Positions 31,254-61,548 of a stretch of 64,000 nucleotides of DNA are shown piece by piece. The stretch is taken from NCBI GenBank assembly GCA_960531495.1, contig OY482855.1, positions 1,426,001 through 1,490,000 on the forward strand, in the 5' to 3' direction. The notes below the pieces were generated by a model. The model worked only from the letters and a program-made list of their open reading frames with translations, made no database searches and was not told the origin of the DNA. A program made the position numbers and the translations under genes. Source of the DNA: Zeus faber (lineage: Eukaryota; Chordata; Actinopteri; Zeiformes; Zeidae). The first letter of the stretch is position 1, and each line of letters starts with the position of its first letter.

Positions 31254-32676
31254 ATGTATTTTTCGAGTTCAGATAATTTTCATCAAAGTCTACACGTGGG
31301 AAAAAACGCATTTTCAGTCGATTTAAACGTCGATTTGGCGGAACGGTGAAACACTTCAGTCATTACTCTATGTGACAGTGTCAGACAGTTTAAATACAAT
31401 GATAAACTAGTATGTGCTGCTAAAGTCTTGTTTGTCAACCAGTTTTAGGCCCAAATAAAATGTATTTTTCGAGTTCTGATAATTTTCATCAAAGTCTACA
31501 CGTGAGAAAAAACGCATTTTCAGCCGATTTAAACTTCGAAAAGGCGAATCGGTTGAACGCTTCAGTCATTACTCTATGTGACAGTGTCAGACAGTTTAAA
31601 TACAATGAATAACTAGTATGTGCTGCTAAAGTGTTGTATGTCAAACAGTTTTAGGCCCATTTAAAATGTATTTGTTGAGTTATGATCATTTTCATCATAG
31701 TGTGCACATGTGGGAAAAAACGCATTTTCAGCCGATTTAAACGTCGAAAAGGCGTATTGGTTAAACACTTCAGTCAGTACTCTGTGTGACAGTGTCAGAC
31801 AGTTTAAATACAATGGTGAACTAGTATATGCTGCTAAAGTGTTGTTTGTCAAACAGTTTTAGGCCCATACAACATGTATTTGTCGAGGTATGAGCATTTT
31901 CAGAACATTGGACGGTTTGCTGTCTAGCTGATTTAGAGAAACACCGAACCATTGTCTCTTCAGAGGTGAATGATTCAGAATGCTGCAGTACAGCATTGAA
32001 ATTTAATTAATATGATGAACTATTATGTCCTTCTTAAGTGTTTCTCACAGAATTCTAGGCCCATCTAACATGTATTTGTGGAGTTATGATCATTTTCATC
32101 ATAGTGTGCACATGTGGGAAAAAATGCATTTTCAGCCGATTTAAACGTCGAAAAGGAGAATTGGTCAAAAGCTTTAGTCATTACTTTGAGTGACAGAGTC
32201 AGACAGTTTAAATACAATGGTGAACTAGTATATGCTGCTAAAGTGTTGTTTGTCAAACAGTTTTAGGCCCATGTAAAATGTATTTGTCGAGTTATGATCA
32301 TTTTCATCATAGTGTGCACATGTGGGAAAAAATGCATTTTCAGCCGATTTAAACGTCGAAAAGGAGAATTGGTCAAAAGCTTCAGTCATTACTCTGTGTG
32401 ACAGTGACAGACAGTTTAAATACAATGATGAACTAGTATATGCTGCTAAAGTGTTGTTTGTCAAACAGTTTTAGGCCCATAGAAAATGTATTTGTCGAGT
32501 TATGATCATTTTCATCATAGTGTGCACATGTGGGAAAAAACGCATTTTCAGCCGATTTAAACGTCGAAACGGCGAATTGGTTAAACGCTTCAGTCATTAC
32601 TCTGTGTGACAGTGTCAGACAGTTTAAATACAATGAATAACTAGTATGTGCGGCTAAAGTGTTGTTTGTCAACCAG

Positions 32677-32716
32677 TGCGCATGCGCGACTGGCATCCGA
32701 CAGCACCAGGAAGTGG
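32677..32716 (+). promoter_or_regulatory. NRF-1 palindrome and ETS-like site at the LINE 5' end (copy 1)
   Basis: TGCGCATGCGCG (32677-32688) matches the NRF-1 consensus YGCGCAYGCGCR at every position, and CCAGGAAGTGG (32706-32716) carries a GGAAGT ETS core. LINEs need a promoter inside their own 5' end, and NRF-1 plus ETS is a known TATA-less combination. The first T comes from the satellite. Promoter activity is inference. Confidence 0.55.
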
Positions 32717-32881
32717 AACACCGCGGGTGGAACACGGAAGGGAGTTTTTTCCGGACTCCAGAACGTCTTTACGGAATCTTTTTCATTTTTATGTGACTGA
32801 TCCTCCAGCAGTGGTTGTTTTCAGTGCGTGGGGGGTCCCCCCCCCCACACACCCCAACCACCCTTTTTCTTGGGGTGTGCG

Positions 32882-33039
32882 ATGACCGATCACATTGAAA
32901 CAAACTCTGCGACCGGGAAAATGGATCACGTACGGCTGAATGAAGAAGCAAACGCACCAAAAGGTGGCGGCGAAGCAGACAGAAGCTATGGAAAAGAGCT
33001 TACAGTCTGTGTGGACCTGCAAGGGGAGGAAAGTATTAC
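32882..33039 (+). pseudogene. LINE copy 1 ORF1, N-terminal piece
   Basis: The ATG at 32882 starts the same frame as the intact ORF1 of copy 2 (start 61549). About 53 codons are read, differing from copy 2 by at least one residue (D for E near the end), and then the frame enters the nested LINE at 33040. The reading frame resumes on the other side at 36563. ORF1 would encode an RNA-binding protein of the retrotransposition complex; this copy cannot make it. Confidence 0.8.
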
Positions 33040-36000
33040 AAGATTCAAGATTCAAGATTCAAGATTTTTTATTTGTCACATACATATACATACTTCCATA
33101 CATATATGCAGTGAAATGTAATGCATGTGATAGCACACAATAAGTCCTAGGAAAAAGTACAAAAATAAAATAAAATAAAAAGTAGAAAATTCCTTTCTAA
33201 TAGACCGACTAACTGACTCCTAAAACGTAATACAGTAAGTGGAATACTTATAGAATAAGATAAAAAATATATAGAATAAAATACAATAAAAAATAAATTG
33301 AAATAAAATGGAATAGGTTGAAGGAATATGGGTATGTATATACAGATATGTGCATTTAAAGTGGCATGTGAATTAAAGTGGCATGTGAATGTGAATAGTG
33401 TGAGGTAGTGTTTGGGATAATACAGCACAGTATACAACAGTACGGCGCAGCAATACGGCATCACGAACAACCCTGAACAGTGATACAGTATGCGGTACAG
33501 TATGCTTCATACAGTACAGTAGGTAGTGGAGCCTAGTGCATGGCTCAGTTAGGACCCCTGGTGAGGTCAGCGTTGACAGTTCTGATGGCTTGAGGGAAGA
33601 AACTCCGTCTGAGTCTCTCTGTTCTCGCTGCGTGACTGCGGAGGCGCTTGCCTGACCGCAGCAGCTGAAACAGTCCGTTGTTGGGGTGATGAGGATCCTT
33701 CATGATCCTACGGGCTCTGCTACTACACCTCCTGGTGTATTACTCCTGCAAGGGGGGGAGGGTAGTTCCAGTGGTACGTTCAGCTGAACGCACCACCCTC
33801 TGCAGGGCCCGCCTGTCCTGGGCAGTACAGTTCCCAAACCAGGCAGTGATGTTGCCTGTCAGGATGCTCTCCACTGCTCCAGAGTAGGACTTGAGGATCC
33901 TCACCGAGACCCGGAATTTCCTCAGCTGCCTGAGGTGGTAGAGACGCTGCCTCGCCTTTCTCACCAGAGTGTCTGTATGAACAGTCCATGTTAAGTCCTC
34001 TGTGATGTGGACTCCCAGATATCTGAAGCTGCTCACCCTATCGACAGAAGTCCCATTAATCCACAAGGGCGCGTGCGTCCTCGATTGTGATCCACGCCTA
34101 AAGTCCACAATCAGCTCCTTGGTTTTGCTGACGTTCAGGTGGAGGCTGTTGTCCTGGCACCAGAGTGACAGGTCAGCCACCTCCTCGCGGTAGGCCTTCT
34201 CATCGCAGTCGGTGATCAGGCCCACGACCACGGTGTCGTCAGCAAACTTGATGATGGTGTTGGAGCTGGACCTGGCCACACAGTCATGTGTGTACAGGGA
34301 GTACAGTAGGGGGCTGAGGACGCAGCCCTGGGGGGATCCTGTATTCAGGGTGAGGGAGCTTGACATGTACTTCCCCACCTTGACCACCTGGGGGCGGCCT
34401 GTGAGGAAGTCCAGGATCCAGGTGCACAGCGGAGCATTCAATCCTAGCTCCAACAACTTGACAGCCAGTCTGGTGGGGACTATGGTGTTGAAAGCTGAAC
34501 TATAATCAATGAACAGCATTCTCACATAGGCCCCCTTCTGGCCATCCAGGTGCGTGAGCGTGGTGTGCAGTACCTGGGAGACCGCGTCATCCGTGGATCT
34601 GTTCTGCCGGTACGCGAACTGCAACGGGTCCAAGGTGCGGGGGAGGGAGGCGCAGATGTAATCCTTAATCAGCCTCTCGAAACACTTCATGACCACCGAG
34701 GTGAGGGCCACCGGACGGTAGTCATTCAGGCAGGTTGGAGAGGCGATCTTCGGGACAGGAACGACGGTGGACCTCTTGAAACAGGACGGGACCACTGATT
34801 CAGCCAGGGAGATGTTGAATATTGTGGTGACCACCGGAGCTAGCTGGTTAGCACAGGTCTTCAGTACTCGTCCAGATATGCCATCTGGACCCGCAGCTTT
34901 CCTGGTGTTGACACGCATCAGAGCCCTCCTGACCTCGTGCACGGACACTGAGAGTGCGCGCTCGTCCCCAGCGGTGTAACTCCAATTAGCCGGCGAGCTA
35001 GCGGTGCTGCTGCCAGACTCGAACCGCGCATAAAAGGAGTTCAGTTGGTTGGCCAGGGAGGCGTCCACACTCGTGGCTGGGGAGGAGCTGCTCTTGTAGT
35101 TTGTTATTGTTCGCAGCCCCTCCCACAAGCGTCTTGTGTCCCCCCGCTCCATCTGCAGCTCCACGGTGTCTCTGTACGTCCGTTTGGCGTCCCTCACCAC
35201 CCTCCGCAGATTGTACGACGCCGCTTTGTAATTGTCCATGTTGCCAGATACAAGTCCGTCGTTGTAAGCGGCCGTGCGCGCATTCAGAGCGCAGCGGATG
35301 GATTTATCAACCCATGGTTTCTGGTTTGGAAATATCCGAACTTTCACCGTGGGAACGATTTCATCCGCGAGCGTAGCCACAAAACTCACTACAACCTCCG
35401 TAAACTCGCTGACGTCACTTGAGCTCGCTTGGAACACGTCCCAGTCTACGTCAGTCAGAGCGTCCTGAAGCGCAGCCTCTGATTGGTCCGTCCACCGCTT
35501 CACTTCCCTCGTCATCACCAGATCCCGCGCGATCAGAGGCCTGTAAACAGGAAGCAGCGAGATCGCGGCGTGATCTGATTTCCCGAAAGCAGGAAGCGAC
35601 ACGGGCTTGTATCCGTTCTTGTAAGGAGTGTAACAATGGTCCAGAGTTCTGTCTCCCCTGGTGGCACACGTGATGTGTTGGTGGAAATTCGGCAGAACTT
35701 TTTTCAGGTTGGCCCTGTTAAAGTCCCCAGTCACCACCACAGCCGCGTCGGGATGTCTGTTCTGAAATCCGCACAACACATCGTGCAGAACCGACAGAGC
35801 TGCGTCGGTGTCCGCTTGCGGTGGGATATAAACGGCTGTAATGATGACCGTGCTGAATTCCCGGGGGAGATAAAATGGACGGCATAGTATGGTCAGCTGT
35901 TCCAGGTTCGGCGAGCAGGAGTGGGAGAGGAATTTGGTGTTGTTGGCGTTACACCAGCGGTTGTTTACCATTAGGCAGACGCCTCCACCTTTGGATTTCC

Positions 36001-36561
36001 CCGACTCTCCCGTTCTGTCGCCGCGGAACACGGAGAAGGCCTCGGCTGGACGTATGGCTTCATCCGGCACCAGTGGGGTCAGCCATGTTTCCGTCAGGCA
36101 GAGGACGCAACAGTTCCTCGTGTCACGCTGGAATTGAATCCTCGCTCGAAGTTCATCCATCTTGTTCTCCAGGGACTGGACGTTAGCAAGAAGGATGCTT
36201 GGCAGAGGTGGACGGTAAGGTTGCGTCCTCATTCTGACCCGAATGCCGCCTCGTTTACCTCGGTGCTTCCTCCGTGGGCCGGCTCGTGGAACAGCGACTC
36301 CATTTTTGTTGTTGTTGCGAGTGTTCCCGCGTAGGATTTCCGCCGGCCACTCTGCTCCCACGGATAAAAAGTCCCAAAGTTGTTCGTTTAGGGAAATTTT
36401 TATATCCATGAGTGCATCGCGGCCGTATGAGTTAATTGTTGATGTTTTTCTGGCGAACATCGTGATAAAAAAAGGAAAAAAATACTAAAGAGTAAGAAAG
36501 TAACCGGAGCGCCGGCGCAGGCGACCGCTAGGGGCGGCGCCACTATCGCCACACATCGCCA
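33040..36561 (-). mobile_element. Rex1/L2-like LINE nested in LINE copy 1
   Basis: Copy 2 reads GTATTACGACGACGG without interruption; copy 1 has GTATTAC, then 3.5 kb, then TACGACGACGG, so the insert is 33040-36561 with a probable 3-bp TAC duplication. The element runs on the minus strand: a GC-rich 5' UTR (36561-36461), one long ORF, a 3' UTR, and a 3' end of short tandem GATTCAA repeats (plus-strand view, 33041-33065) typical of CR1/L2/Rex1-group LINEs, which lack poly(A). It appears full length and must be younger than the insertion of its host LINE. A 5'-truncated relative lies at 12872-13110. Confidence 0.9.
33545..36460 (-). pseudogene. Rex1/L2-like LINE ORF (endonuclease and reverse transcriptase), one stop
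   Basis: The frame from the ATG at 36460 runs 906 codons to a TAA at 33742-33740, then stays open in phase for another 64 codons to TGA at 33547-33545. Family members usually continue through this tail (PHHPNNGLFQLL), so the TAA is probably a single nonsense mutation. Domains: AP-type endonuclease (LANVQSLENK, LCLTETWL, GDFNRANL near residue 245, SDHAAISLLP); reverse transcriptase with AAGPDGISG, NDYRPVALTS, LFIDYSSAFNTIVP, SPQGCVLSPLLYSL and the FADD catalytic box at about residues 739-742. The endonuclease nicks target DNA and the RT copies RNA at the nick. The SSAFNTI form of motif A points to Rex1 rather than classic L2; exact clade unsure. Confidence 0.88.
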
Positions 36562-36562
36562 T

Positions 36563-37787
36563 ACGACGACGGAATTGATGAAGAACGTGCGAGAGCTCTG
36601 CGGCGGTTTACTAGCTTGCCGCACCACCGGAGATCGACGATACGAACTTACAATGACAGGAGAGTGAGACAGAAAGAGAGAGAGAGAGAGACAGAAAGAG
36701 AGAGCGACAGACAGAAAGAGAGGGGGAGAGAGAGACAACAAGACTTTTTTTCCGGAGTTCAAAAATGAGTCACCAAAGAGGGAAAGATCGCCTGCTGGAG
36801 GGATTCAAGATTGGAGAGGTAAGAATAATAGCCAGAGAATTGAGGAATGACGAGATGGTCGTTTCCTTCCTCAACCTCCCGGCTTATATTACTGACGACG
36901 AAATACTGGGGAAGCTACATGGTTGGGGCGTGTCGGCCACCTCGCCGATTAAGCGCAGAATGTGGCCAGGAACCCGTATTGCGGACGGTACACGGTTTAT
37001 GAGAGTAAAATTCAATAAATTAGTTCAGAGTCTTCCATACTCTGCAAAGTTTCACACTGCCATAGGGCCAGAGTACTTCCGCGTCATTCACGATAGACAA
37101 TCAAAGGTCTGCCGCCTCTGTATACAGCCTGGACATATCCTACGGGAATGTCCGGAGTTCTTCTGTCGCAAATGTGGATTGCAAGGACACTTTGCGAGAG
37201 AGTGCAAAAGTGCCAAGAAATGTGACCTGTGTCATAACACTTGGAATGAATGTGACTGCAATAAGAGCGAGGAGGACGGCGGCGCTCCGCTGGTCACGAC
37301 GGCCGCTTCAACCGATAGGCAAGGCGAACTGCATAGCGAGGATGAAAATAAAATGGAGACTGAGACAGGGCAGGCGGATGTGAGGGATGAAACTCAACCT
37401 GCAGTGGCGGGTAGTATGAACCAAGCAAGCAAGGTGAGGCTAGATCTGAGCTCCGGCTCTGACGAGGAGAGCGGAGCGAGACGAGGAGCAAGGCTGAAGG
37501 CGGAGGTGGGAGGGGAGGTGCTAGCCTTGGGAGTGGGCCCCACCCCCGCTCCTACCCCGCTGCTGCTGAAGCAAATCAGAGATCCTGCATCTGAGATGGG
37601 AATGATGAATAGGTCATCATCTCAGTCCCAGCCCCTCCAGCGACTGCCTCTTGATAACCCGATCTCAAGTGCAAGTGAGGCCGAATCCGAGATAGACTTG
37701 TCTCATATGAACAGAATTGGGAAAAGGCTAAGTGAAAAGCAGATGAGAAGGAGAAGCAAGAGAAACAAAGACAGAGTTAATAACTAA
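36563..37787 (+). pseudogene. LINE copy 1 ORF1, remainder with zinc knuckles
   Basis: This resumes the ORF1 frame after the nested LINE. A 112-bp GA-rich insert (36657-36768) then introduces a stop and shifts the frame. From the ATG at 36765 a 340-codon frame is open. It includes an RRM-like segment (VVSFLNLPAYITDDEIL ... TRFMRVKF), two CCHC knuckles (CRLCIQPGHILREC and CRKCGLQGHFAREC, both CX2CX4HX4C), a third partial C-rich motif (CDLCHN), and an acidic then basic C-terminus. A truncated protein from 36765 would keep the RRM-like and knuckle regions, but its normal N-terminus is lost. The stop (TAA 37785-37787) lies 37 bp before the ORF2 ATG. Confidence 0.88.
36657..36768 (+). repeat. 112-bp GA-rich insert in ORF1 of LINE copy 1
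   Basis: Copy 2 reads ACAATGAGTGACC; copy 1 has ACAATGA, then a GAGA/GACAGA-rich stretch ending TTTTTTTCCGGAGTTC, then AAAATGAGTCACC. Five bases (AATGA) flank both sides. The length is not a multiple of three, so it shifts ORF1. Its TTTTTTCCGGA end resembles TTTTTTCCGGACTCC near the LINE's own 5' end (32746-32760). Confidence 0.8.
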
Positions 37788-37824
37788 ATGTCGAAAATCA
37801 TACTCTCTTCTCAGTGTGACTCTA

Positions 37825-40800
37825 ATGATTAGCTTCACTTCTCTAAATGCTAACGGCCTACGCACAAAATCGAAAATAGATTCTGTACTGCAAACTTTGA
37901 ACTCAGATGTAGTCTGCCTGCAAGAAACTTGGTGGGACCAGGAGCATCACGACTATGTGGCGAACCAGAGAAACAAGCAGGTATTTTCAAACCACGGGTC
38001 AGCAAGATCATGCGGGGTAGCAATCATATCTAAGATTGCTTCAGGCATGAGTGCTCAAGAGATATACAAAGACGATCAAGGCAGAGTATTAATTGTAGAT
38101 TTTTCACTTAATAAACAACGATATAGAATAATTAACATATATGCACCAAACAATGAAAATCATAGAAAGCAGTTTTTCATTAAATTAAAGAAATGGTACG
38201 GAAACAATGTAATAATAACTGGAGACTTTAATGTGGCTCTAACAAAAATGGACGTGTCAGTAAACAATACCTTCAAGAGTGACGCCAGTCGAACAACCCT
38301 AATGAATTTGATAAATCACCATAACCTAGTAGAAATGTGGAGAATCTCAAACCCTTTGAAGCGGGACTTCTCGAGAAGGCAGATTGTAAAGGGGGTCCTC
38401 AAACAGTCCAGAATCGATCTCTGTCTGGCTTCCTCCAGCATTATCAGGGACATTAACAAAATTAAATATGAGTTCAATAGCTGGAGCGATCACGCATCTT
38501 TATACTGGCAATTAGGGGACGATGGAAGGCCCAGAGGTGGGGGCATCTGGTGCTTCAATGCCAGTCTCCTTGAGGACCAAACCTTCAAAAAAAAGATAAG
38601 GAATCTACTGAGCAATATAACAGATGAATTAGCTGTAGAAGAAAACTATATTAAATCATGGGACGATGTAAAAAGACGAATTAAGAGAGCCTGTATAAAT
38701 TATAGTAAAGAGAAAGGATGGCGGGAAGGAATGGAGGAGAGAACATTAAGGCACCTCCTCGCAAAAGAAATTACATTACTTGACCATAACCCTGACAGAA
38801 GTTGTGCAAAATTTGAAGAATATGAAGCTAAACTTCACTCTTTTGAAAAGAAAAGATGCATAGGAGCAGCTGTTAGAAGTAGATTTAAAAATATCACAGA
38901 TGGGGAGAAATGTACAGCTTTTTTCCTTGGCCTAGAAAAACAAAAACAAAACAAAGCCAGAATGGGTCAGATTGAAAATAGTAAGGGGGAAATAATAGCT
39001 GAGCAGGAAGACATACTGGACGAAATACATAGGTATTACGAGAACCTCTTTACTAGTAACAGCTCCAATCCAAAACAGACTAAAGAAATACTGGAATGTA
39101 TTGATAGGGAAATCAATCACATCGACAAAGAAGAGTGCGACACGGTAATCACATTAGCGGAAGTAGAACTGGCAATAGATGGACAAAATAAGAACAAAAG
39201 CCCAGGCCCAGACGGAATCTCGACAGAGTTCTACCAGTGCTTCAAAGCCCAGCTGGCCCCCTTGCTGCTAAAACTTTACACTAGTATTAGAGTAAACCAG
39301 ACAACTCCGGACTCCCTCACAAAAGGTATCATCACAATTGTATTTAAGAATAAAGGATGCCGGAACCAACTGAAAAACTATAGGCCAATTAGCCTACTCA
39401 ATTCAGATTATAAGATTCTGGCAAAAATTCTGGCTAATAGACTTAAAGCAGTAATAGGCTCAATCATCAGCAATACGCAAACTTACAGTATCCCAGGCAG
39501 AGATATTACAGACTCCATCAATACAATTAGGGATACAGTAAAAACAATGACTATGCAGAGGGGCCTGCTGCTTGGAGTAGACCTAGAAAAAGCTTTTGAC
39601 AGGGTTGAGCATCCGTTCCTCTGGTCCGTAATGGAAAAGTTCGGCTTCGGAGCAAAGTTCATCGATTGGATCAAGGTTTTATATCGAAGTGCGAGTAGCA
39701 GGGTGAAATGCAACGGACTTCTCACCAGGGACATTCGGATCGAGAGGTCGGTGAGACAGGGATGCCCCCTCTCAGCTCTGCTATACACCCTGGTCGCAGA
39801 ACCCCTCGCACTCCTAATACTGAAAGACAAAAATATAAAAGGTATCTTAACGCCAAATGGCAGCAAAACCAAAATAGTCCAATATGCAGACGACATTAAT
39901 ATCATGGTCTCGGATGGTGACAGCATAGACCATGTCTTCAAACACCTAGGGGCCTATGAGAAAGCCTCTGGCGCAAGAATCAATAAAGAAAAATCTGCAA
40001 TAATGTTCTGCGGTAAGAATCAAAAAACGATAAACAAATGGGGCCTTAAAGAGACCACAGGGTGCAGAGAAATCTGGGGTGTGTACATTGGGAAAGACGA
40101 GAGTGAAGCAAGAGATAAAACATGGAAGAGTGTGATAATTAAAATACAGTGTACCTTGAACCTGTGGAGGGCGAGGGGGCTTAGTCTAAAAGGAAAGGTA
40201 ATAGTATCTAATGCCCTAGTGCTGTCAAAAATAAATCATGCTTTGGGAACCTGTGAGCTGCCCGATTGGGCACTAAATTCATTGAACGGTGAGATCTCCT
40301 CCTTTCTTTGGAAGGGTAAGGGAAATATGTTCGCCCACAGGACGTTAATTGCTAATAAACGGGAGGGGGGATTAGGGCTGATTGACATTGGTGCCAAAAG
40401 AGACGCACTGAGGGTTAAATTGATAGGGAAATTCTTGGATTCGACCAGGCAGTATCCCTGGGAGGACGCACTCGCAGGCTACCTGGCGGAGTTTGGGGAG
40501 AGGAGCAAATACAATCTCTGTACCCACTACCCCAGAAAAACTTACAGTGGCCTGCCGGGCTTCTACCAGGAGGTGCTGGAGGCATGGGGAAGGATACTCC
40601 CCCACCTCAGACCCGAGTGCAGTAAAAAAGAGCATGTGCTGCAGTTACCTTTCCTCTCGAATCCATGCTTCACCTATAATGGGAGAAACCTCGTCAGCAG
40701 TCACTTAACGGCAGCAGGCCTAACAAGAGTGGGACAGGTGACCGACCACAAAGGGAACTTTGATATAGGGAATGTACTATGGGAATTAGACAGATGGAAG

Positions 40801-41619
40801 GTGCAATACAGGGAAAAACTGATTGTCTCTTTCGGGGAAAAATTTGATCAAAGCCTACTACCTGAGTGGCGAGGCATGCTCAAAGAGAAAGGAACCAAGG
40901 TGCAGGATGATGCCCTGAACTTCCTCCTGTGCCTTAGAGGAAAATTCCCCACCATCCAATCAGTGAAAACCAGAGACTGGTATAGATTACTCATTTCAAA
41001 GATTGTGACAATTCCAGCTTCAGAAAAGGCCTGGTCAAGGATATTTCCTGGCTATTCAATTAGAAATATATGGAACAACATGGAAATCCCTTTTGCCACA
41101 TCAGCCATCTTCCACCTGGATTTCAAGATAAGGCACAGGAGGATTTTTACTGGCATCATCCTGCATCAATAACACAAAGACTTGCACAAAAGGGAGTGTG
41201 TGGTCTGCATGGAAGAAGCAGAAGACATTGAGCACCTGTTCCTTAGGTGCACGGCCCTCACAAACTATAGGGAGAGGGTCAAGAGCCTACTGGTGGAACA
41301 TTGTGGCCTTAGGAGACTAACAGGGCTTACATGGGACTGGGCCTACATGTTTGGCCCCCCCCCCAAAACAATGAGCCCAACGGAAAACTTACTGATAAAC
41401 ACTGTGCTGGCATTTGCCAGGCGCGCAACATGGACAAGAAGGAACTTGGCACTATATGAGGGTAGAGACGTAAGCATACAAAGCCTCTTTGGAAACTCAC
41501 TAAAGGCCCACCTATTGTTGCTAAATGGAGGAAACAAAGACCTTTTTGTAATCCAATTTATGCAACAAACTACCCTACTCCAGGAAACTGAATGCCACTC
41601 TCTCTCCTTCGCATTCTGA
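37825..41619 (+). pseudogene. LINE copy 1 ORF2: endonuclease-reverse transcriptase, one stop
   Basis: From the ATG at 37825 the frame is open for 1115 codons, is cut by TAA at 41170-41172, and continues in phase to TGA at 41617-41619 (1265 codons in all). AP-type endonuclease: LNANGL at the start, QET at residues 33-35, GDFN at 133-136, SDH at 221-223. Reverse transcriptase: SPGPDGISTEF, NYRPISLLNSDYKILAKILA, LLGVDLEKAFDRV, RQGCPLSALLYTL and catalytic YADD at residues 687-690. After the stop a zinc finger follows (CVVCMEEAEDIEHLFLRC, CX2CX8HX4C), usual at the end of L1/Tx1 ORF2. The lone stop removes the zinc finger. The protein would nick target DNA and prime reverse transcription there; in target-specific members the endonuclease gives much of the specificity. 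Confidence 0.93.
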
Positions 41620-41733
41620 TAGGATAGAGAAGGGAGAAAAAGGGAAAACATGTATTTCCCAAGTGTTTAAAAATGTTTTCTTGGCATAATTGTTACTGTT
41701 GATGATTCTGTATTTTTATACTAAAAAAAAAAA
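41620..41733 (+). other. LINE copy 1 3' UTR, poly(A) tail and satellite junction
   Basis: A short 3' UTR of about 100 bp, with no AATAAA seen, ends TTTTTATACT followed by about 11 A. The next bases, TGTATTTGTTGAGTTATG, are satellite. Uninterrupted monomers read ...CCATATAAAATGTATTT at this point, so the A run merges with target A residues, as expected when the RNA tail anneals to a T-rich nicked strand. Confidence 0.8.
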
Positions 41734-42535
41734 TGTATTTGTTGAGTTATGATCATTTTCATCATAGTGTGCACATGAGGGAAAAAACGCATTTTCAGCC
41801 GATTTAAACGTCGAAAAGGCGAATTGGTTAAACGCTTCAGTCATTACTCTGTGTGACAGTATCAGACAGTTTAAATACAATGATGAACTAGTATGTGCTG
41901 CTAAAGTGTTGTTTATCAAACAGTTTTAGTCCCATAGAAAATGTATTTGTCGAGTTATGATCATTTTCATCGTAGTGTGCACATGTGGGAAAAAACGCAT
42001 TTTCAGCCGATTTAAACGTCGAAAAGGCGTATTGGTTAAACACTTCAGTCATTACTCTGTGTGACAGTGTCAGACAGTTTAAATACAATGATTAACTAGT
42101 ATGTGCTGCTAAAGTGTTGTTTGTCAACCAGTTTTAGGCCCATATAAAATGTATTTGTCGAGGTATGAGCATTTTCATAACATTGGACGGTTTGCTGTCT
42201 AGCTGAATTAGAGAAACACCGAACCATTGTCTCTTCAGAGGTGAATGATTCAGAATGCTGCAGTACAGCATAGAAATTTAATTAATATGATGAACTATTA
42301 TGTGCTTCTTAAGTGTTTCTCTCAGATTTCTATGCCCATCTAACATGTATTTCTGGAGTTATGATCATTTTCAGAACTTGTGACAGTTTGCTGTCTAACT
42401 GAATTAGAGAAACACCGAACCATTGTCTCTTCAGAGGTGAATGATTCAGAATGCTGCAGTACAGCATAGAAATTTAATTAATATGATGAACTATTATGTG
42501 CTTCTTAAGTGTTTCTCACAGATTTCTAGGCCCAT

Positions 42536-48500: not shown

Positions 48501-48990
48501 AGACAGTTTAAATACAATGGTGAACTAGTATATGCTGCTAAAGCGTTGTTTGTCAAACAGTTTTAGGCCCATACAACATGTATTTGTCGAGGTATGAGCA
48601 TTTTCAGAACATTGGACGGTTTTGCTGTCTAGCTGAATTAGAGAAACACCGAACCATTGTCTCTTCAGAGGTGAATGATTCAGAATGCTGCAGTACAGCA
48701 TAGAAATGTTATTAATATGATGAACTATTATGTGCTTCCTAAGTTTTTCTCTAAGATTTCTATGCCCATCTAACATGTATTTGTGGAGTTAGGATCATTT
48801 TCATCATAGTGTGCACATGTGGGAAAAAACGCATTTTCAGCCGATTTAAACGTCGAAAAGGGGAATTGGTTAAACGCTTCAGTCATAACTCTATGTGACA
48901 GTGTCAGACAGTTTAAATACAATGGTGAACTAGTATATGCTGCTAAAGCGTTGTTTGTCAAACAGTTTTAGGCCCATACAACATGTATTT
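42536..48990 (+). repeat. 3233-bp higher-order repeat, two copies
   Basis: Landmarks at 43308, 43468, 44116, 44324, 44522, 44924, 45132, 45292 and 45537 recur 3233 bp later at 46541 to 48770. Rare variants are shared, such as AAACGAATTTTCAG (43367 and 46600). At the left end the offset is 3417 bp (42536 to 45953), because copy 1 carries one extra B monomer of about 184 bp near 43010-43190. Confidence 0.88.
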
Positions 48991-49973
48991 ATCGAGGTAT
49001 GAGCATTTTCAGAACATTGGACGGTTTGCTGTCTAGCTGAATCAGAGAAACACCGAACCATTGTCTCTTCAGAGGTGAATGATTCAGAATGCTGCAGTAC
49101 AGCATAGAAATTTTATTAATATGATGAACTATTATGTGCTTCCTAAGTTTTTCTCTCAGATTTCTATGCCCATCTAACATGTATTTCTGGAGTTATGATC
49201 ATTTTCAGAACTTGTGACGGTTTGCTGTCTAACTGAATTAGAGAAACACCGAACCATTGTCTCTTCAGAGGTGAATGATTCAGAATGCTGCAGTACAGCA
49301 TAGAAATTTAATTAATATGATGAACTATTATGTGCTTCTTAAGTGTTTCTCACAGATTTCTAGGCCCATCTAACATGTATTTGTGGAGTTATGATCATTC
49401 TCATCATTGTGTGCACATGTGGGAAAAAACGCATTTTCAGGCGATTTAAACGTCGAAAAGGGGAATCGGTTAAACGCTTCAGTCATTACTCTGTGTGACA
49501 GTGTCAGACAGTTTAAATGCTGCTAAAGTGTTGTTTGTCAAACAGTTTTGGGCCCATGTAAAATGTATTTGTCGAGTTATGATTATTTTCATCATTGTGT
49601 GCACATGTGGGAAAAAACGCATTTTCAGCCGATTTAAACGTCGAAAAGGGGAATTGGTTAAACGCTTCAGTCATTACTCTGTGTGACAGTGTCAGACAGT
49701 TTAAAGACAATGGTGAACTAGTATATGCTGCTAAAGTGTTGTTTGTCAAACAGTTTTAGGCCCATGTAAAATGTATTTGTCGAGTTATGATCATTTTCAT
49801 CATTGTGTGCACATGTGGGAAAAAACGCATTTTCAGCCGATTTAAACGTCGAAAAGGGGAATTGGTTAAACGCTTCAGTCATTACTCTGTGTGACAGTGT
49901 CAGACAGTTTAAATACAATGGTGAACTAGTATATGCTGCTAAAGTGTTGTTTGTCAACCAGTTTTAGGCCCAT

Positions 49974-52900
49974 CTAACATGTATTTGTCGAGTTATGATC
50001 ATTTTTATCATTATGTGTACATGTGGGAAAAAACGCATTTTCAGACGATTTAAACGTCGAAAAGGGGAATTGCTTAAACGCTTCAGTCATTACTCTGCGT
50101 GACAGTGTCAGACAGTTTAAATACAATGGTGAACTAGTATATGCTGCTAAAGCGTTGTTTGTCAAACAGTTTTAGGCCCATACAACATGTATTTGTCGAG
50201 GTATGAGCATTTTCAGAACATTGGACGGTTTGCAGTCTAGCTGAATTAGAGAAACACCGAACCATTGTCTCTTCAGAGGGGAATGATTCAGAATGCTGCA
50301 GTACAGCATAGAAATTTAATTAATATGATGAACTATTATGTGCTTCCTAAGTTTTTCTCTCAGATTTCTATGCCCATCTAACATGTATTTCTGGAGTTAT
50401 GATCATTTTCAGAACTTGTGACGGTTTGCTGTCTAACTGAATTAGAGAAACACCGAACCATTGTCTCTTCAGAGGTGAATGATTCAGAATGCTGCAGTAC
50501 AGCATAGAAATTTAATTAATATGATGAACTATTATGTGCTTCTTAAGTGTTTCTCACAGATTTCTAGGCCCATCTAACATGTATTTGTGGAGTTATGATC
50601 ATTTTCATCATTGTGTGCACATGTGGGAAAAAACGCATTTTCAGCCGATTTAAACGTCGAAAAGGGGAATGGTTAAACGCTTCAGTCATTACTCTGTGTG
50701 ACAGTGTCAGACAGTTTAAATACAATGGTGAACTAGTATATGCTGCTAAAGTGTTGTTTGTCAACCAGTTTTAGGCCCATCTAACATGTATTTGTCGAGT
50801 TATGATCATTTTCAGAACTTGTGACGGTTTGCTGTCTAACTGAATTAGAGAAACACCGAACCATTGTCTCTTCAGAGGTGAATGATTCAGAATGCTGCAG
50901 TACAGCATAGAAATTTAATTAATATGATGAACTATTATGTGCTTCTTAAGTGTTTCTCACAGATTTCTAGGCCCATCTAACATGTATTTGTGGAGTTATG
51001 ATCATTCTCATCATTGTGTGCACATGTGGGAAAAAACGCATTTTCAGGCGATTTAAACGTCGAAAAGGGGAATCGGTTAAACGCTTCGGTCATTACTCTG
51101 TGTGACAGTGTCAGACAGTTTAAAGACAATGGTGAACTAGTATATGCTGCTAAAGTGTTGTTTGTCAAACAGTTTTAGGCCCATGTAAAATGTATTTGTC
51201 GAGTTATGATCATTTTCATCATTGTGTGCACATGTGGGAAAAAACGCATTTTCAGCCGATTTAAACGTCGAAAAGGGGAATTGGTTAAACGCTTCAGTCA
51301 TTACTCTGTGTGACAGTGTCAGACAGTTTAAATACATTGGTGAACTAGTATATGCTGCTAAAGTGTTGTTTGTCAACCAGTTTTAGGCCCATCTAACATG
51401 TATTTGTCGAGTTATGATCATTTTCATCATTATGTGTACATGTGGGAAAAAACGCATTTTCAGCCGATTTAAACGTCGAAAAGGGGAATTGCTTAAACGC
51501 TTCAGTCATTTCTCTGTGTGACAGTGTCAGACAGTTTAAATACAATGGTGAACTAGTATATGCTGCTAAAGCGTTGTTTGTCAAACAGTTTTAGGCCCAT
51601 ACAACATGTATTTGACGAGGTATGAGCATTTTCAGAACCTTGGACGGTTTGCTGTCTAGCTGAATTAGAGAAACACCGAACCATTGTCTCTTCAGAGGTG
51701 AATGATTCAGAATGCTGCAGTACAGCATAGAAATTTTATTAATATGATGAACTATTATGTGCTTCTTAAGTGTTTCTCACAGATTTCTAGGCCCATCTAA
51801 CATGTATTTGTGGAGTTATGATCATTTTCATCATTGTGTGCACATGTGGGAAAAAACGCATTTTCAGCCGATTTAAACGTCGAAAAGGGGAATTGGTTAA
51901 ACGCTTCAGTCATTACTCTGTGTGACAGTGTCAGACAGTTTAAATACAATGGTGAACTAGTATATGCTGCTAAAGTGTTGTTTGTCAACCAGTTTTAGGC
52001 CCATCTAACATGTATTTGTCGAGTTATGATCATTTTCATCATTATGTGTACATGTGGGAAAAAATGCATTTTCAGCCGATTTAAACATCGAAAAGGGGAA
52101 TTGGTTAAACGCTTCAGTCATAACTCTGTGTGACAGTGTCAGACAGTTTAAATACAATGGTGAACTAGTACATGCTGCTAAAGCGTTGTTTGTCAACCAG
52201 TTTTAGGCCCATACAACATGTATTTGTCGAGGTATGAGCATTTTCAGAACATTGGACGGTTTGCTGTCTAACTGAATTAGAGAAACACCGAACCATTGTC
52301 TCTTCAGAGGTGAATAATTCAGAATGCTGCAGTACAGCATAGAAATTTTATTAATATGATGAACTATTATGTGCTTCCTAAGTTTTTCTCTCAGATTTCT
52401 ATGCCCATCTAACATGTATTTCTGGAGTTATGATCATTTTCAGAACTTGTGACGGTTTGCTGTCTAACTGAATTAGAGAAACACCGAACCATTGTCTCTT
52501 CAGAGGTGAATGATTCAGAATGCTGCAGTACAGCATAGAAATTTAATTAATATGATGAACTATTATGTGCTTCTTAAGTGTTTCTCACAGATTTCTAGGC
52601 CCATCTAACATGTATTTGTGGAGTTATGATCATTCTCATCATTGTGTGCACATGTGGGAAAAAACGCATTTTCAGGCGATTTAAACGTCGAAAAGGGGAA
52701 TTGGTTAAACGCTTCAGTCATTACTCTGTGTGACAGTGTCAGACAGTTTAAATACAATGGTGAACTAGTATATGCTGCTAAAGTGTTGTTTGTCAAACAG
52801 TTTTGGGCCCATGTAAAATGTATTTGTCGAGTTATGATTATTTTCATCATTGTGTGCACATGTGGGAAAAAACGCATTTTCAGCCGATTTAAACGTCGAA

Positions 52901-55900
52901 AAGGGGAATTGGTTAAACGCTTCAGTCATTACTCTGTGTGACAGTGTCAGACAGTTTAAAGACAATGGTGAACTAGTATATGCTGCTAAAGTGTTGTTTG
53001 TCAACAAGTTTTAGGCCCATCTAACATGTATTTATTGAGTTATGATCATTTTCATCATTATGTGTACATGTGGGAAAAAACGCATTTTCAGCCGATTTAA
53101 ACGTCGAAAAGGGGAATTGGTTAAACGCTTCAGTCATAACTCTATGTGACAGTGTCAGACAGTTTAAATACAATGGTGAACTAGTATATGCTGCTAACGC
53201 GTTGTTTGTCAAACAGTTTTAGGCCCATACAACATGTATTTATCGAGGTATGAGCATTTTCAGAACATTGGACGGTTTGCTGTCTAGCTGAATTAGAGAA
53301 ACACCGAACCATTGTCTCTTCAGAGGTGAATGATTCAGAATGCTGCAGTACAGCATAGAAATTTTATTAATATGATGAACTATTATGTGCTTCCTAAGTT
53401 TTTCTCTCAGATTTCTATGCCCATCTAACATGTATTTCTGGAGTTATGATCATTTTCAGAACTTGTGACGGTTTGCTGTCTAACTGAATTAGAGAAACAC
53501 CGAACCATTGTCTCTTCAGAGGTGAATGATTCAGAATGCTGCAGTACAGCATAGAAATTTAATTAATATGATGAACTATTATGTGCTTCTTAAGTGTTTC
53601 TCACAGATTTCTAGGCCCATCTAACATGTATTTGTGGAGTTATGATCATTCTCATCATTGTGTGCACATGTGGGAAAAAACGCATTTTCAGGCGATTTAA
53701 ACGTCGAAAAGGGGAATCGGTTAAACGCTTCAGTCATTACTCTGTGTGACAGTGTCAGACAGTTTAAAGACAATGGTGAACTAGTATATGCTGCTAAAGT
53801 GTTGTTTGTCAAACAGTTTTAGGCCCATGTAAAATGTATTTGTCGAGTTATGATCATTTTCATCATTGTGTGCACATGTGGGAAAAAACGCATTTTCAGC
53901 CGATTTAAACGTCGAAAAGGGGAATTGGTTAAACGCTTCAGTCATTACTCTGTGTGACAGTGTCAGACAGTTTAAATACAATGGTGAACTAGTATATGCT
54001 GCTAAAGTGTTGTTTGTCAACCAGTTTTAGGCCCATCTAACATGTATTTGTCGAGTTATGATCATTTTCATCATTATGTGTACATGTGGGAAAAAACGCA
54101 TTTTCAGCCGATTTAAACGTCGAAAAGGGGAATTGCTTAAACGCTTCAGTCATTTCTCTGTGTGACAGTGTCAGACAGTTTAAATACAATGGTGAACTAG
54201 TATATGCTGCTAAAGCGTTGTTTGTCAAACAGTTTTAGGCCCATACAACATGTATTTGACGAGGTATGAGCATTTTCAGAACATTGGACGGTTTGCTGTC
54301 TAGCTGAATTAGAGAAACACCGAACCATTGTCTCTTCAGAGGTGAATGATTCAGAATGCTGCAGTACAGCATAGAAATTTTATTAATATGATGAACTATT
54401 ATGTGCTTCTTAAGTGTTTCTCACAGATTTCTAGGCCCATCTAACATGTATTTGTGGAGTTATGATCATTTTCATCATTGTGTGCACATGTGGGAAAAAA
54501 CGCATTTTCAGCCGATTTAAACGTCGAAAAGGGGAATTGGTTAAACGCTTCAGTCATTACTCTGTGTGACAGTGTCAGACAGTTTAAATACAATGGTGAA
54601 CTAGTATATGCTGCTAAAGTGTTGTTTGTCAACCAGTTTTAGGCCCATCTAACATGTATTTGTCGAGTTATGATCATTTTCATCATTATGTGTACATGTG
54701 GGAAAAATGCATTTTCAGCCGATTTAAACATCGAAAAGGGGAATTGGTTAAACGCTTCAGTCATAACTCTGTGTGACAGTGTCAGACAGTTTAAATACAA
54801 TGGTGAACTAGTATATGCTGCTAAAGTGTTGTTTGTCAACCAGTTTTAGGCCCATCGAACATGTATTTGTCGAGTTATGATCATTTTCATCATTATGTGT
54901 ACATGTGGGAAAAAACGCATTTTCAGCCGATTTAAACGTCGAAAAGGGGAATTGCTTAAACGCTTCAGTCATTACTCTGTGTGACAGTGTCAGACAGTTT
55001 AAATACAATGGTGAACTAGTATATGCTGCTAAAGTGTTGTTTGTCAACCAGTTTTAGGCCCATCTAACATGTATTTGTCGAGTTATGATCATTTTTATCA
55101 TTATGTGTACATGTGGGAAAAAACGCATTTTCAGACGATTTAAACGTCGAAAAGGGGAATTGCTTAAACGCTTCAGTCATTACTCTGCGTGACAGTGTCA
55201 GACAGTTTAAATACAATGGTGAACTAGTATATGCTGCTAAAGCGTTGTTTGTCAAACAGTTTTAGGCCCATACAACATGTATTTGTCGAGGTATGAGCAT
55301 TTTCAGAACATTGGACGGTTTGCAGTCTAGCTGAATTAGAGAAACACCGAACCATTGTCTCTTCAGAGGGGAATGATTCAGAATGCTGCAGTACAGCATA
55401 GAAATTTAATTAATATGATGAACTATTATGTGCTTCCTAAGTTTTTCTCTCAGATTTCTATGCCCATCTAACATGTATTTCTGGAGTTATGATCATTTTC
55501 AGAACTTGTGACGGTTTGCTGTCTAACTGAATTAGAGAAACACCGAACCATTGTCTCTTCAGAGGTGAATGATTCAGAATGCTGCAGTACAGCATAGAAA
55601 TTTAATTAATATGATGAACTATTATGTGCTTCTTAAGTGTTTCTCACAGATTTCTAGGCCCATCTAACATGTATTTGTGGAGTTATGATCATTTTCATCA
55701 TTGTGTGCACATGTGGGAAAAAACGCATTTTCAGCCGATTTAAACGTCGAAAAGGGGAATTGGTTAAACGCTTCAGTCATTACTCTGTGTGACAGTGTCA
55801 GACAGTTTAAATACAATGGTGAACTAGTATATGCTGCTAAAGTGTTGTTTGTCAACCAGTTTTAGGCCCATCTAACATGTATTTGTCGAGTTATGATCAT

Positions 55901-58900
55901 TTTCAGAACTTGTGACGGTTTGCTGTCTAACTGAATTAGAGAAACACCGAACCATTGTCTCTTCAGAGGTGAATGATTCAGAATGCTGCAGTACCACATA
56001 GAAATTTAATTAATATGATGAACTATTATGTGCTTCTTAAGTGTTTCTCACAGATTTCTAGGCCCATCTAACATGTATTTGTGGAGTTATGATCATTCTC
56101 ATCATTGTGTGCACATGTGGGAAAAAACGCATTTTCAGGCGATTTAAACGTCGAAAAGGGGAATCGGTTAAACGCTTCGGTCATTACTCTGTGTGACAGT
56201 GTCAGACAGTTTAAAGACAATGGTGAACTAGTATATGCTGCTAAAGTGTTGTTTGTCAAACAGTTTTAGGCCCATGTAAAATGTATTTGTCGAGTTATGA
56301 TCATTTTCATCATTGTGTGCACATGTGGGAAAAAACGCATTTTCAGCCGATTTAAACGTCGAAAAGGGGAATTGGTTAAACGCTTCAGTCATTACTCTGT
56401 GTGACAGTGTCAGACAGTTTAAATACATTGGTGAACTAGTATATGCTGCTAAAGTGTTGTTTGTCAACCAGTTTTAGGCCCATCTAACATGTATTTGTCG
56501 AGTTATGATCATTTTCATCATTATGTGTACATGTGGGAAAAAACGCATTTTCAGCCGATTTAAACGTCGAAAAGGGGAATTGCTTAAACGCTTCAGTCAT
56601 TTCTCTGTGTGACAGTGTCAGACAGTTTAATTACAATGGTGAACTAGTATATGCTGCTAAAGCGTTGTTTGTCAAACAGTTTTAGGCCCATACAACATGT
56701 ATTTGACGAGGTATGAGCATTTTCAGAACCTTGGACGGTTTGCTGTCTAGCTGAATTAGAGAAACACCGAACCATTGTCTCTTCAGAGGTGAATGATTCA
56801 GAATGCTGCAGTACAGCATAGAAATTTAATTAATATGATGAACTATTATGTGCTTCTTAAGTGTTTCTCACAGATTTCTAGGCCCATCTAACATGTATTT
56901 GTGGAGTTATGATCATTTTCATCATTGTGTGCACATGTGGGAAAAAACGCATTTTCAGCCGATTTAAACGTCGAAAAGGGGAATTGGTTAAACGCTTCAG
57001 TCATTACTCTGTGTGACAGTGTCAGACAGTTTAAATACAATGGTGAACTAGTATATGCTGCTAAAGTGTTGTTTGTCAACCAGTTTTAGGCCCATCTAAC
57101 ATGTATTTGTCGAGTTATGATCATTTTCATCATTATGTGTACATGTGGGAAAAAATGCATTTTCAGCCGATTTAAACATCGAAAAGGGGAATTGGTTAAA
57201 CGCTTCAGTCATAACTCTGTGTGACAGTGTCAGACAGTTTAAATACAATGGTGAACTAGTATATGCTGCTAAAGCGTTGTTTGTCAACCAGTTTTAGGCC
57301 CATACAACATGTATTTGTCGAGGTATGAGCATTTTCAGAACATTGGACGGTTTGCTGTCTAACTGAATTAGAGAAACACCGAACCATTGTTTCTTCAGAG
57401 GTGAATGATTCAGAATGCTGCAGTACAGCATAGAAATTTTATTAATATGATGAACTATTATGTGCTTCCTAAGTTTTTCTCTCAGATTTCTATGCCCATC
57501 TAACATGTATTTCTGGAGTTATGATCATTTTCAGAACTTGTGACGGTTTGCTGTCCAACTGAATTAGAGAAACACCGAACCATTGTCTCTTCAGCGGTGA
57601 ATGATTCAGAATGCTGCAGTACAGCATAGAAATTTTATTAATATGATGAACTATTATGTGCTTCTTAAGTGTTTCTCACAGATTTCTAGGCCCATCTAAC
57701 ATGTATTTGTGGAGTTATGATCATTTTCATCATTGTGTGCACATGTGGGAAAAAACGCATTTTCAGCCGATTTAAACGTCGAAAAGGGGAATTGGTTAAA
57801 CGCTTCAGTCATTACTCTGTGTGACAGTGTCAGACAGTTTAAATACAATGGTGAACGAGTATATGCTGCTAAAGTGTTGTTTGTCAAACAGTTTTGGGCC
57901 CATGTAAAATGTATTTGTCGAGTTATGATTATTTTCATCATTGTGTGCACATGTGGGAAAAAACGCATTTTCAGCCGATTTAAACGTCGAAAAGGGGAAT
58001 TGGTTAAACGCTTCAGTCATTACTCTGTGTGACAGTGTCAGACAGTTTAAATACAATGGTGAACTAGTATATGCTGCTAAAGTGTTGTTTGTCAACCAGT
58101 TTTAGGCCCATCTAACATGTATTTGTCGAGTTATGATCATTTTCATCATTATGTGTACATGTGGGAAAAAATGCATTTTCAGCCGATTTAAACATCGAAA
58201 AGGGGAATTGGTTAAACGCTTCAGTCATAACTCTGTGTGACAGTGTCAGACAGTTTAAATACAATGGTGAACTAGTATATGCTGCTAAAGTGTTGTTTGT
58301 CAACAAGTTTTAGGCCCATCTAACATGTATTTATTGAGTTATGATCATTTTCATCATTATGTGTACATGTGGGAAAAAACGCATTTTCAGCCGATTTAAA
58401 CGTCGAAAAGGGGAATTGGTTAAACGCTTCAGTCATAACTCTATGTGACAGTGTCAGACAGTTTAAATACAATGGTGAACTAGTATATGCTGCTAAAGCG
58501 TTGTTTGTCAAACAGTTTTAGGCCCATACAACATGTATTTATCGAGGTATGAGCATTTTCAGAACATTGGACGGTTTGCTGTCTAGCTGAATTAGAGAAA
58601 CACCGAACCATTGTCTCTTCAGAGGTGAATGATTCAGAATGCTGCAGTACAGCATAGAAATTTTATTAATATGATGAACTATTATGTGCTTCCTAAGTTT
58701 TTCTCTCAGATTTCTATGCCCATCTAACATGTATTTCTGGAGTTATGATCATTTTCAGAACTTGTGACGGTTTGCTGTCTAACTGAATTAGAGAAACACC
58801 GAACCATTGTCTCTTCAGAGGTGAATGATTCAGAATGCTGCAGTACAGCATAGAAATTTAATTAATATGATGAACTATTATGTGCTTCTTAAGTGTTTCT

Positions 58901-60150
58901 CACAGATTTCTAGGCCCATCTAACATGTATTTGTGGAGTTATGATCATTCTCATCATTGTGTGCACATGTGGGAAAAAACGCATTTTCAGGCGATTTAAA
59001 CGTCGAAAAGGGGAATCGGTTAAACGCTTCAGTCATTACTCTGTGTGACAGTGTCAGACAGTTTAAAGACAATGGTGAACTAGTATATGCTGCTAAAGTG
59101 TTGTTTGTCAAACAGTTTTAGGCCAATGTAAAATGTATTTGTCGAGTTATGATCATTTTCATCATTGTGTGCACATGTGGGAAAAAACGTATTTTCAGCC
59201 GATTTAAACGTCGAAAAGGGGAATTGGTTAAACGCTTCAGTCATCACTCTGTGTGACAGTGTCAGACAGTTTAAATACAATGGTGAACTAGTATATGCTG
59301 CTAAAGTGTTGTTTGTCAACCAGTTTTAGGCCCATCTAACATGTATTTGTCGAGTTATGATCATTTTCATCATTATGTGTACATGTGGGAAAAAATGCAT
59401 TTTCAGCCGATTTAAACATCGAAAAGGGGAATTGGTTAAACGCTTCAGTCATAACTCTGTGTGACAGTGTCAGACAGTTTAAATACAATGGTGAACTAGT
59501 ATATGCTGCTAAAGCGTTGTTTGTCAAACAGTTTTAGGCCCATACAACATGTATTTGTCGAGGTATGAGCATTTTCAGAACATTGGACGGTTTGCTGTCT
59601 AACTGAATTAGAGAAACACCGAACCATTGTTTCTTCAGAGGTGAATGATTCAGAATGCTGCAGTACAGCATAGAAATTTTATTAATATGATGAACTATTA
59701 TGTGCTTCCTAAGTTTTTCTCTCAGATTTCTATGCCCATCTAACATGTATTTCTGGAGTTATGATCATTTTCAGAACTTGTGACGGTTTGCTGTCCAACT
59801 GAATTAGAGAAACACCGAACCATTGTCTCTTCAGCGGTGAATGATTCAGAATGCTGCAGTACAGCATAGAAATTTTATTAATATGATGAACTATTATGTG
59901 CTTCTTAAGTGTTTCTCACAGATTTCTAGGCCCATCTAACATGTATTTGTGGAGTTATGATCATTTTCATCATTGTGTGCACATGTGGGAAAAAACGCAT
60001 TTTCAGCCGATTTAAACGTCGAAAAGGGGAATTGGTTAAACGCTTCAGTCATTACTCTGTGTGACAGTGTCAGACAGTTTAAATACAATGGTGAACTAGT
60101 ATATGCTGCTAAAGTGTTGTTTGTCAACCAGTTTTAGGCCCATCTAACAT
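49974..60150 (+). repeat. Nested 2644-bp and 5091-bp higher-order repeats
   Basis: Landmarks at 50977, 51137, 51797, 52005, 52203 and 52605 recur 5091 bp later. From about 53021 on, the offset becomes 5299 bp (53021 to 58320, 53621 to 58920), i.e. one extra 208-bp A monomer in the second copy. Inside the first copy, 50977, 51137, 51393 and 51797 recur 2644 bp later at 53621, 53781, 54037 and 54441. This shows at least two rounds of segmental duplication. Confidence 0.85.
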
Positions 60151-61343
60151 GTATTTGTCGAGTTATGATCATTTTCATCATTATGTGTACATGTGGGAAA
60201 AAACGCATTTTCAGCCGATTTAAACGTCGAAAAGGGGAATTGCTTAAACGCTTCAGTCATTACTCTGCGTGACAGTGTCAGACAGTTTAAATACAATGGT
60301 GAACTAGTATATGCTGCTAAAGCGTTGTTTGTCAAACAGTTTTAGGCCCATACAACATGTATTTGTCGAGGTATGAGCATTTTCAGAACATTGGACGGTT
60401 TGCAGTCTAGCTGAATTAGAGAAACACCGAACCATTGTCTCTTCAGAGGTGAATGATTCAGAATGCTGCAGTACAGCATAGAAATTTTATTAATATGATG
60501 AACTATTATGTGCTTCCTAAGTTTTTCTCTAAGATTTCTATGCCCATCTAACATGTATTTGTGGAGTTAGGATCATTTTCATCATAGTGTGCACATGTGG
60601 GAAAAAACGCATTTTCAGCCGATTTAAACGTCGAAAAGGGGAATTGGTTAAACGCTTCAGTCATTACTCTGTGTGACAGTGTCAGACAGTTTAAATACAA
60701 TGGTGAACTAGTATATGCTGCTAAAGCGTTGTTTGTCAACCAGTTTTAGGCCCATACAACATGTATTTGTCGAGGTATGAGCATTTTCAGAACATTGGAC
60801 GGTTTGCTGTCTAACTGAACTAGAGAAACACCGAACCATTGTCTCTTCAGAGGTGAATGATTCAGAATGCTGCAGTACAGCATAGAAATTTTATTAATAT
60901 GATGAACTATTATGTGCTTCCTAAGTTTTTCTCTCAGATTTCTATGCCCATCTAACATGTATTTCTGGAGTTATGATCATTTTCAGAACTTGTGACGGTT
61001 TGCTGTCCAACTGAATTAGAGAAACACCGAACCATTGTCTCTTCAGCGGTGAATGATTCAGAATGCTGCAGTACAGCATAGAAATTTTATTAATATGATG
61101 AACTATTATGTGCTTCTTAAGTGTTTCTCACAGATTTCTAGGCCCATCTAACATGTATTTGTGGAGTTATGATCATTTTCATCATTGTGTGCACATGTGG
61201 GAAAAAACGCATTTTCAGCCGATTTAAACGTCGAAAAGGGGAATTGGTTAAACGCTTCAGTCATTACTCTGTGTGACAGTGTCAGACAGTTTAAATACAA
61301 TGGTGAACTAGTATATGCTGCTAAAGTGTTGTTTGTCAACCAG

Positions 61344-61383
61344 TGCGCATGCGCGACTGGCATCCGACAGCACCAGGAAGTGG
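61344..61383 (+). promoter_or_regulatory. NRF-1 palindrome and ETS-like site at the LINE 5' end (copy 2)
   Basis: TGCGCATGCGCG (61344-61355) and CCAGGAAGTGG (61373-61383) are identical to copy 1 in sequence and spacing. Retention in both copies is expected from recent common origin, so it does not by itself prove selection. Confidence 0.55.
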
Positions 61384-61548
61384 AACACCGCGGGTGGAAC
61401 ACAGAAGGGAGTTTTTTCCGGACTCCAGAACGTCTTTACGGAATCTTTTTCATTTTTATGTGACTGATCCTCCAGCAGTGGTTGTTTTCAGTGCGTGGGG
61501 GGTCCCCCCCCCCACACACCCCAACCACCCTTTTTCTTCGGGTGTGCG

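Follow-up and report, generated by a model that had tools for sequence, protein, structure and literature searches.

Two copies of a long interspersed nuclear element (LINE) were located in a satellite array within a 64,000-nucleotide stretch of Zeus faber DNA (contig OY482855.1, positions 1,426,001 to 1,490,000 of the forward strand; hereafter the window, in whose numbering all positions are given). The element is probably an L1-group LINE which enters the A monomer of this satellite (about 206 bp) at one exact base, by target-primed reverse transcription. On the basis of two 5' junctions and one 3' junction, its site specificity was considered to be likely. The underlying observations, namely the 5' junctions at the same satellite base and the poly(A) of copy 1 followed by TGTATTTG, are sound. 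The two copies and their junctions are as follows.

32678 to 41733, plus strand: LINE copy 1, 9,056 bp including two later inserts, with an 11-A tail at 41723-41733
61345 to 64000, plus strand: LINE copy 2, running to the window end at 64000
32670 to 32677, plus strand: CAACCAGT, the final satellite bases left of copy 1
61337 to 61344, plus strand: CAACCAGT, the final satellite bases left of copy 2
41734 to 41741, plus strand: TGTATTTG, the initial satellite bases right of copy 1, after the poly(A)

Both copies are on the same strand and start (at 32678 and 61345, respectively) at the same base after CAACCAGT, with a spacing of 28,667 bp, in agreement with a preliminary description of this DNA, in which 28.7 kb had been given. 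Both 5' ends were also taken there to be complete; the two copies agree with each other at this end, and completeness was judged from that agreement only. The junction context common to both copies is satellite ending in GTTTGTCAACCAGT, followed by the element start GCGCATGCGCGACTGG, and an uninterrupted monomer usually reads CAACCAGT-TTTAGGCCCATATAAAA-TGTATTT at this place, with variants. CAACCAGT was matched 75 times in the window against 3.07 expected, and as such a frequent motif of the array the octamer by itself means nothing. A-type junction sites number 114: two hold the LINE, at the same base, and the remaining 112 continue into satellite.

At the right junction of copy 1, 11 A are followed by TGTATTTG, so that the element replaced the 17 satellite bases between CAACCAGT and TGTATTTG, and a target duplication is absent. 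Since up to four target A may be hidden in the tail, the deletion at copy 1 amounts to 13-17 bp. When the two flanks of copy 1 were joined, 800 bp of them were aligned with empty stretches of about 816 bp. After subtraction of the later inserts (9,056 bp minus 3,525 minus 108), copy 1 is about 5.42 kb long.

For the question of one insertion or two, the divergence of the element was compared with that of the adjacent satellite. The two copies show 33 differences over 2,658 aligned positions (1.24%), 3 of them in the first 362 bp (0.83%), and the adjacent left flanks differ at 12 of 205 positions (12 of 200 over the last 200 bp), 5 of these differences being within the last 60 bp. Flank divergence thus exceeds element divergence with an odds ratio of 4.9 (Fisher p = 4.6e-5), and at least 12 differences in 205 positions would be expected at the element rate with p = 1.2e-5. 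The figures of the preliminary description (about 0.8% over the first 360 bp of the element, 11-12 differences in 200 bp of flank) were reproduced, and its argument that the flanks should match as well as the elements if the array had been duplicated is borne out by these values and by the empty monomers described below. The nearest LINE-free relatives of the flank of copy 2 and of the stretch upstream of it are as follows.

51789 to 51993, plus strand: LINE-free A monomer matching the left flank of copy 2 without a difference over 205 bp
48066 to 49546, plus strand: LINE-free empty-site twin of the stretch upstream of copy 2, 97.4% identity over 1.5 kb

The 205-bp flank of copy 2 was matched exactly at 6 of the 113 other A-type sites (the monomer listed above and those ending at 45120, 54637, 55860, 57084 and 60132), all of which are LINE-free and continue with TTTAGGCCCATCTAACATG. 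The flank of copy 1 is closest to the monomer ending at 42132, with 7 differences, and the best match of the 1.5 kb upstream of copy 1 (91.7%) is LINE-free too. One monomer further upstream, copy 1 has an A-type unit and copy 2 a B-type unit, as had been described before. On the plus strand of the window, CCCATAGAAAATG is present at two places only: the monomer adjoining copy 1 on the left, and the first complete one on its right. This is the pattern that a simple insertion of copy 1 into a local run of monomers would leave. The difference between element and flank divergence, the six identical empty monomers and the LINE-free paralogue of 97.4% identity together favour two independent insertions over array duplication. 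As read from the sequence, two independent insertions into two different monomer subtypes are therefore probable. Duplication of the array with the LINE inside it was disfavoured by the element/flank divergence, the nearest-monomer search and the upstream monomer order.

A more elaborate course of events would be a single insertion, duplication of the array with the LINE, and subsequent replacement of the satellite beside one copy by conversion or unequal exchange ending at the LINE edge, and this was judged to be unlikely. It draws on the recent internal duplications of the array, which are of similar age (2-4 kb, 96-98.5% identity), so that exchange on such a time scale is plausible, and on the identity of the final 25 bp of both flanks, by which an exchange tract ending near the LINE is possible; conversion tracts may indeed end where homology ends. 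It requires, however, that the exchange ended within about 25 bp of the first base of the LINE, left of at least one copy, and it has to accommodate the 5 flank differences in the last 60 bp, the excess of flank over element divergence, the A and B order of the upstream monomers, and upstream stretches each of which best matches LINE-free array elsewhere. Together with the shared 25 bp and the rearrangements of the array, several further points weigh against two site-specific insertions. Flank 2 ranks among the closer sites to flank 1, with only 6 of 113 sites ahead of it, although in the reverse comparison 52 of 113 lie closer to flank 2 than flank 1 does; part of this closeness is due to the 58 sites of the left array part, which belong to another subtype. 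The evidence consists of two copies in one window and one 3' junction (copy 1); that of copy 2 is beyond the window end, so that TGTATTTG on the right, as expected in the preliminary description, was found at the one junction of two that could be checked (41734). The changes between the copies comprise 11 synonymous and 19 nonsynonymous ones (dN/dS 0.47), and the synonymous excess is not significant (p from 0.055 to 0.21, depending on the transition bias), for which reason the selection pattern was rejected as proving that separate sources were active.

A non-specific LINE could also have inserted twice independently, at a T-rich nick site recurring in every monomer, but this was considered to be improbable. 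The preference of L1-type endonucleases is TTTT/AA, and as bottom-strand nick candidates 4-5 TTTT and 4 TTTA per A monomer were counted in two monomers, so that repeated use of one nick site would not be very rare; for a monomer of about 206 bp, the naive chance that a second insertion falls on the same base is about 1/206, or 1/412 when the strand is counted. TTTTA was absent from the bottom strand of both A monomers counted, and TTTT is missing from this strand at the six empty twins of the copy 2 site, where the sequence is CTAACATG. The top-strand junction, which is not fixed in a generic L1 insertion, also agrees to the base, and copy 1 shows a small deletion and no duplication. From the shared top-strand junction and the lack of TTTT in the empty twins, direct recognition of the satellite is the likelier cause of the same base. 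An assembly artefact, in which one LINE-bearing molecule was placed twice, is hardly credible: satellite arrays are difficult to assemble, but copy 1 differs from copy 2 by 33 substitutions and carries two inserts that copy 2 lacks, the nested LINE of 3.5 kb and the insert of 108 bp, and the flanks differ as well. The proposal of a satellite-specific family was upheld in part: independent insertion at one exact base is well supported, and a specific family is likely within the scope of two copies, one window and one 3' junction.

For such site-specific insertion the following steps are proposed from the junctions. The endonuclease would nick the bottom strand just 5' of TGTATTTG as read on the top strand, which in copy 1 would be after TTTT, and the exposed bottom-strand end would prime on the poly(A) of the element RNA. 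The top strand would be cut after CAACCAGT, upstream of the bottom-strand nick, and a small deletion would arise. The two insertions would be separate events, and satellite sequence recognition, not chance, would set the site. In a wider form of this proposal, one base of a long-monomer satellite would be the regular home of the LINE, the stagger of the cuts would lose a short piece of the monomer, and the LINE would rely on the array for its insertion sites, so that array turnover would both spread and remove it; our confidence in this wider form is evenly divided. In R2, cutting of the bottom strand is strict and that of the top strand is variable, with a corresponding alteration of the target (PMC5035012), and among the Utopia elements some families are without duplication and others with one of 20 bp (PMC4640811).

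The coding content of the LINE was annotated as follows.

61549 to 62817, plus strand: open reading frame 1 (ORF1) of copy 2, open, 422 aa, with zinc knuckles (zf-CCHC)
36765 to 37787, plus strand: remainder of ORF1 of copy 1, 340 aa open, with CCHC knuckles by eye, the upstream part being separated by inserts
37825 to 41172, plus strand: ORF2 of copy 1, apurinic/apyrimidinic (AP)-type endonuclease and reverse transcriptase (RT), 1,115 codons, in-frame stop at 41170-41172
62855 to 64000, plus strand: ORF2 of copy 2, open to the window end, with AP-type endonuclease domain

The zf-CCHC match in ORF1 of copy 2 scored 34.6 bits against a cut-off of 20.8 (Pfam), and two stretches were found at a laxer threshold. 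In ORF2 of copy 1, Exo_endo_phos and RVT_1 were detected with Pfam; its frame reopens at 41173 and continues to a stop at 41617-41619, with a weak zf-RVT match below the Pfam cut-off there. The best solved match of this ORF2 in the PDB was human L1 ORF2p (E = 4.2e-82, residues 3-855), and R2 proteins reached 9.2e-18 at best. In the alignment to L1 ORF2p, the endonuclease motifs LNxNGL, QET, GDFN, SRID and SDH were recovered, together with the RT motif YADD (FADD in L1); all six we take to be the catalytic motifs. By this match and the aligned motifs the element was placed in the L1 group of non-LTR (long terminal repeat) retrotransposons, a placement which the sequence supports and which is coarse, as the PDB contains few LINE families. 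CCHC zinc knuckles in ORF1 are a feature of the Tx1 clade, and this feature is present in the LINE described here; its RT motifs may resemble those of fish Tx1 proteins, and the Tx1-like affinity proposed in the preliminary description is a possibility.

Copy 1 looks dead, because its ORF1 is split by a nested LINE and its ORF2 carries the in-frame stop at 41,170-41,172. The later inserts inside copy 1 are as follows.

33040 to 36564, minus strand: nested LINE, 3,525 bp, with a CAAGATT-type repeated 3' tail on the left; missing from copy 2
36657 to 36764, plus strand: GAGA-repeat-rich insert in ORF1, 108 bp, flanks ATGA/AATGA; missing from copy 2

The nested LINE has a single long ORF (33740-36460, 906 aa) with a match to RVT_1 and ALKBH8_N, and an apparent 3-bp target duplication TAC. 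The palindrome GCGCATGCGC opens the element in both copies. Combined with the final satellite T it gives TGCGCATGCGCG, which is present at two places in the window, 32677-32688 and 61344-61355 (4 matches over both strands against 0.01 expected). We take TGCGCATGCGCG to be an NRF1-type promoter consensus, and from its sequence it could be a promoter at the extreme 5' end of the element.

The satellite array extends from 16,728 to 61,344 and is interrupted twice, by LINE copy 1 and LINE copy 2, according to tandem repeat finder and a k-mer scan in which a 13-mer present at least 4 times in the array was counted as satellite. Its two parts are as follows.

16728 to 32677, plus strand: left array part (tandem repeat finder; monomer anchors from 29 kb on; k-mer scan)
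41734 to 61344, plus strand: right array part (tandem repeat finder; k-mer scan)

The left part, which stops at the 5' junction of copy 1, is made up of A-type monomers (about 206/208 bp), with spacings of 252 and 460 bp, and contains some B-like units (about 196 bp). The right part, which stops at the 5' junction of copy 2, is composed of A monomers (about 208/211 bp) mixed with B monomers (about 193/196 bp). The anchor for B monomers did not catch every B-like unit on the left (one example lies near 32040), and B counts are thus no census. Between 16 and 31.5 kb there are 58 A-type sites, with on average 36-38 differences from the two LINE flanks, and the 50 A-type sites right of copy 1 showed on average 15 differences from flank 1 and 6 from flank 2; a shift of subtype is visible near copy 1 (31500-32677). 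In the k-mer scan of about 35.6 kb of array, no other interruption of at least 60 bp was found except a 64-bp run at 16860-16935, which lies inside the repeat-finder array and was read as a variant monomer. The sole foreign DNA seen in this satellite by the scan was the two LINE copies and the inserts nested in copy 1. No CENP-B box was found in the window.

Outside the array, no copy of the element was detected in the 64-kb window by blastn. In collections not expected to hold animal genomes, the following was obtained: in viral contigs, no match to the element 5' end, the satellite or the junction, and 2 pattern matches to ORF2, none a relative by tblastn; in genome contigs, no match to the satellite, and 17 pattern matches to ORF2, none a relative by tblastn; and no match to the element DNA in phages or to ORF2 in plasmids. 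Given the nature of these collections, such negatives carry little weight. Elsewhere in the window, reading frames resembling gag and pol of an endogenous retrovirus by eye were seen in separate pieces on the minus strand at 2291-8573. An UnaL2 LINE 3' element (70.2 bits, Rfam) is located at 9917-9970, an L2-type LINE end outside the satellite, and at gathering scores no other Rfam family was found in the whole window. A scan with bacterial settings revealed no tRNA genes in the window.

Among known elements, human L1 is dispersed and creates target duplications. The LINE in the satellite resembles it in the best solved match of ORF2 and in the poly(A) 3' end, and differs from it in that the same base was used twice, target bases were lost at copy 1 and ORF1 has CCHC knuckles. 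Keno and Mutsu, two site-specific LINEs, are members of the Tx1 clade. Together with Dewa they have been described from zebrafish, the targets being U2 genes for Keno and 5S genes for Mutsu (PMC3706591). The Tx1 clade has an AP endonuclease, Keno being given only an AP-like endonuclease (PMC4640811), and has been placed within the L1 clade (PMC3747384); fish Tx1 diversity is treated in PMC7140322. Tx1-1_ACar of the anole is a telomere-specific Tx1 element in telomeric repeats (PMC10088271). Like Keno, Mutsu and Tx1-1_ACar, the element described here is a LINE with an AP-type endonuclease, probably fixed to one position of a repeated target; unlike them, it has as its target a satellite monomer of about 206 bp, and not an RNA gene, telomere, microsatellite or transposon.

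Associations of LINEs with satellites have been reported in other forms. YURE of sea squirts is occasionally found in a U2-derived satellite and is grouped with restriction-like-endonuclease elements (PMC4640811); the present LINE is likewise within a satellite repeat, but its endonuclease is AP-type and no Rfam family except UnaL2 reaches the gathering score in the window. Celine of poplar is a centromeric LINE with duplications of 10-30 bp and a loose AAGA/AATA preference (PMC11288735); both LINEs are concentrated in a repeat-rich chromosomal domain, and here one base of a monomer is used instead of a loose preference. In zebrafish, LINE density near BRSATI has been addressed (PMC9341512). 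The targets of site-specific LINEs comprise rRNA, tRNA and snRNA genes, spliced-leader exons, microsatellites, telomeric repeats and other transposons (PMC4640811, PMC8869645), and among the titles and abstracts listed in searches of the open-licence literature no LINE tied to a single base of a long-monomer satellite was recognised. The suggestion that the family is possibly undescribed met with no contradiction in this literature, and the element is most likely a satellite-targeting LINE of a known kind whose target was not found in print there.

If this reading is true, the LINE would supply an AP-type endonuclease that is new and has a recognition site of its own, which would be of practical interest for targeted insertion, and it would provide a sequence-specific mark within satellite arrays. 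According to the accounts cited, site-specific LINEs mostly occupy conserved multicopy genes, telomeres and simple repeats. As the sequence of a fast-evolving satellite of about 206 bp drifts, such a target would be uncommon for a LINE, and the system would permit testing how an AP-type endonuclease follows a changing target.

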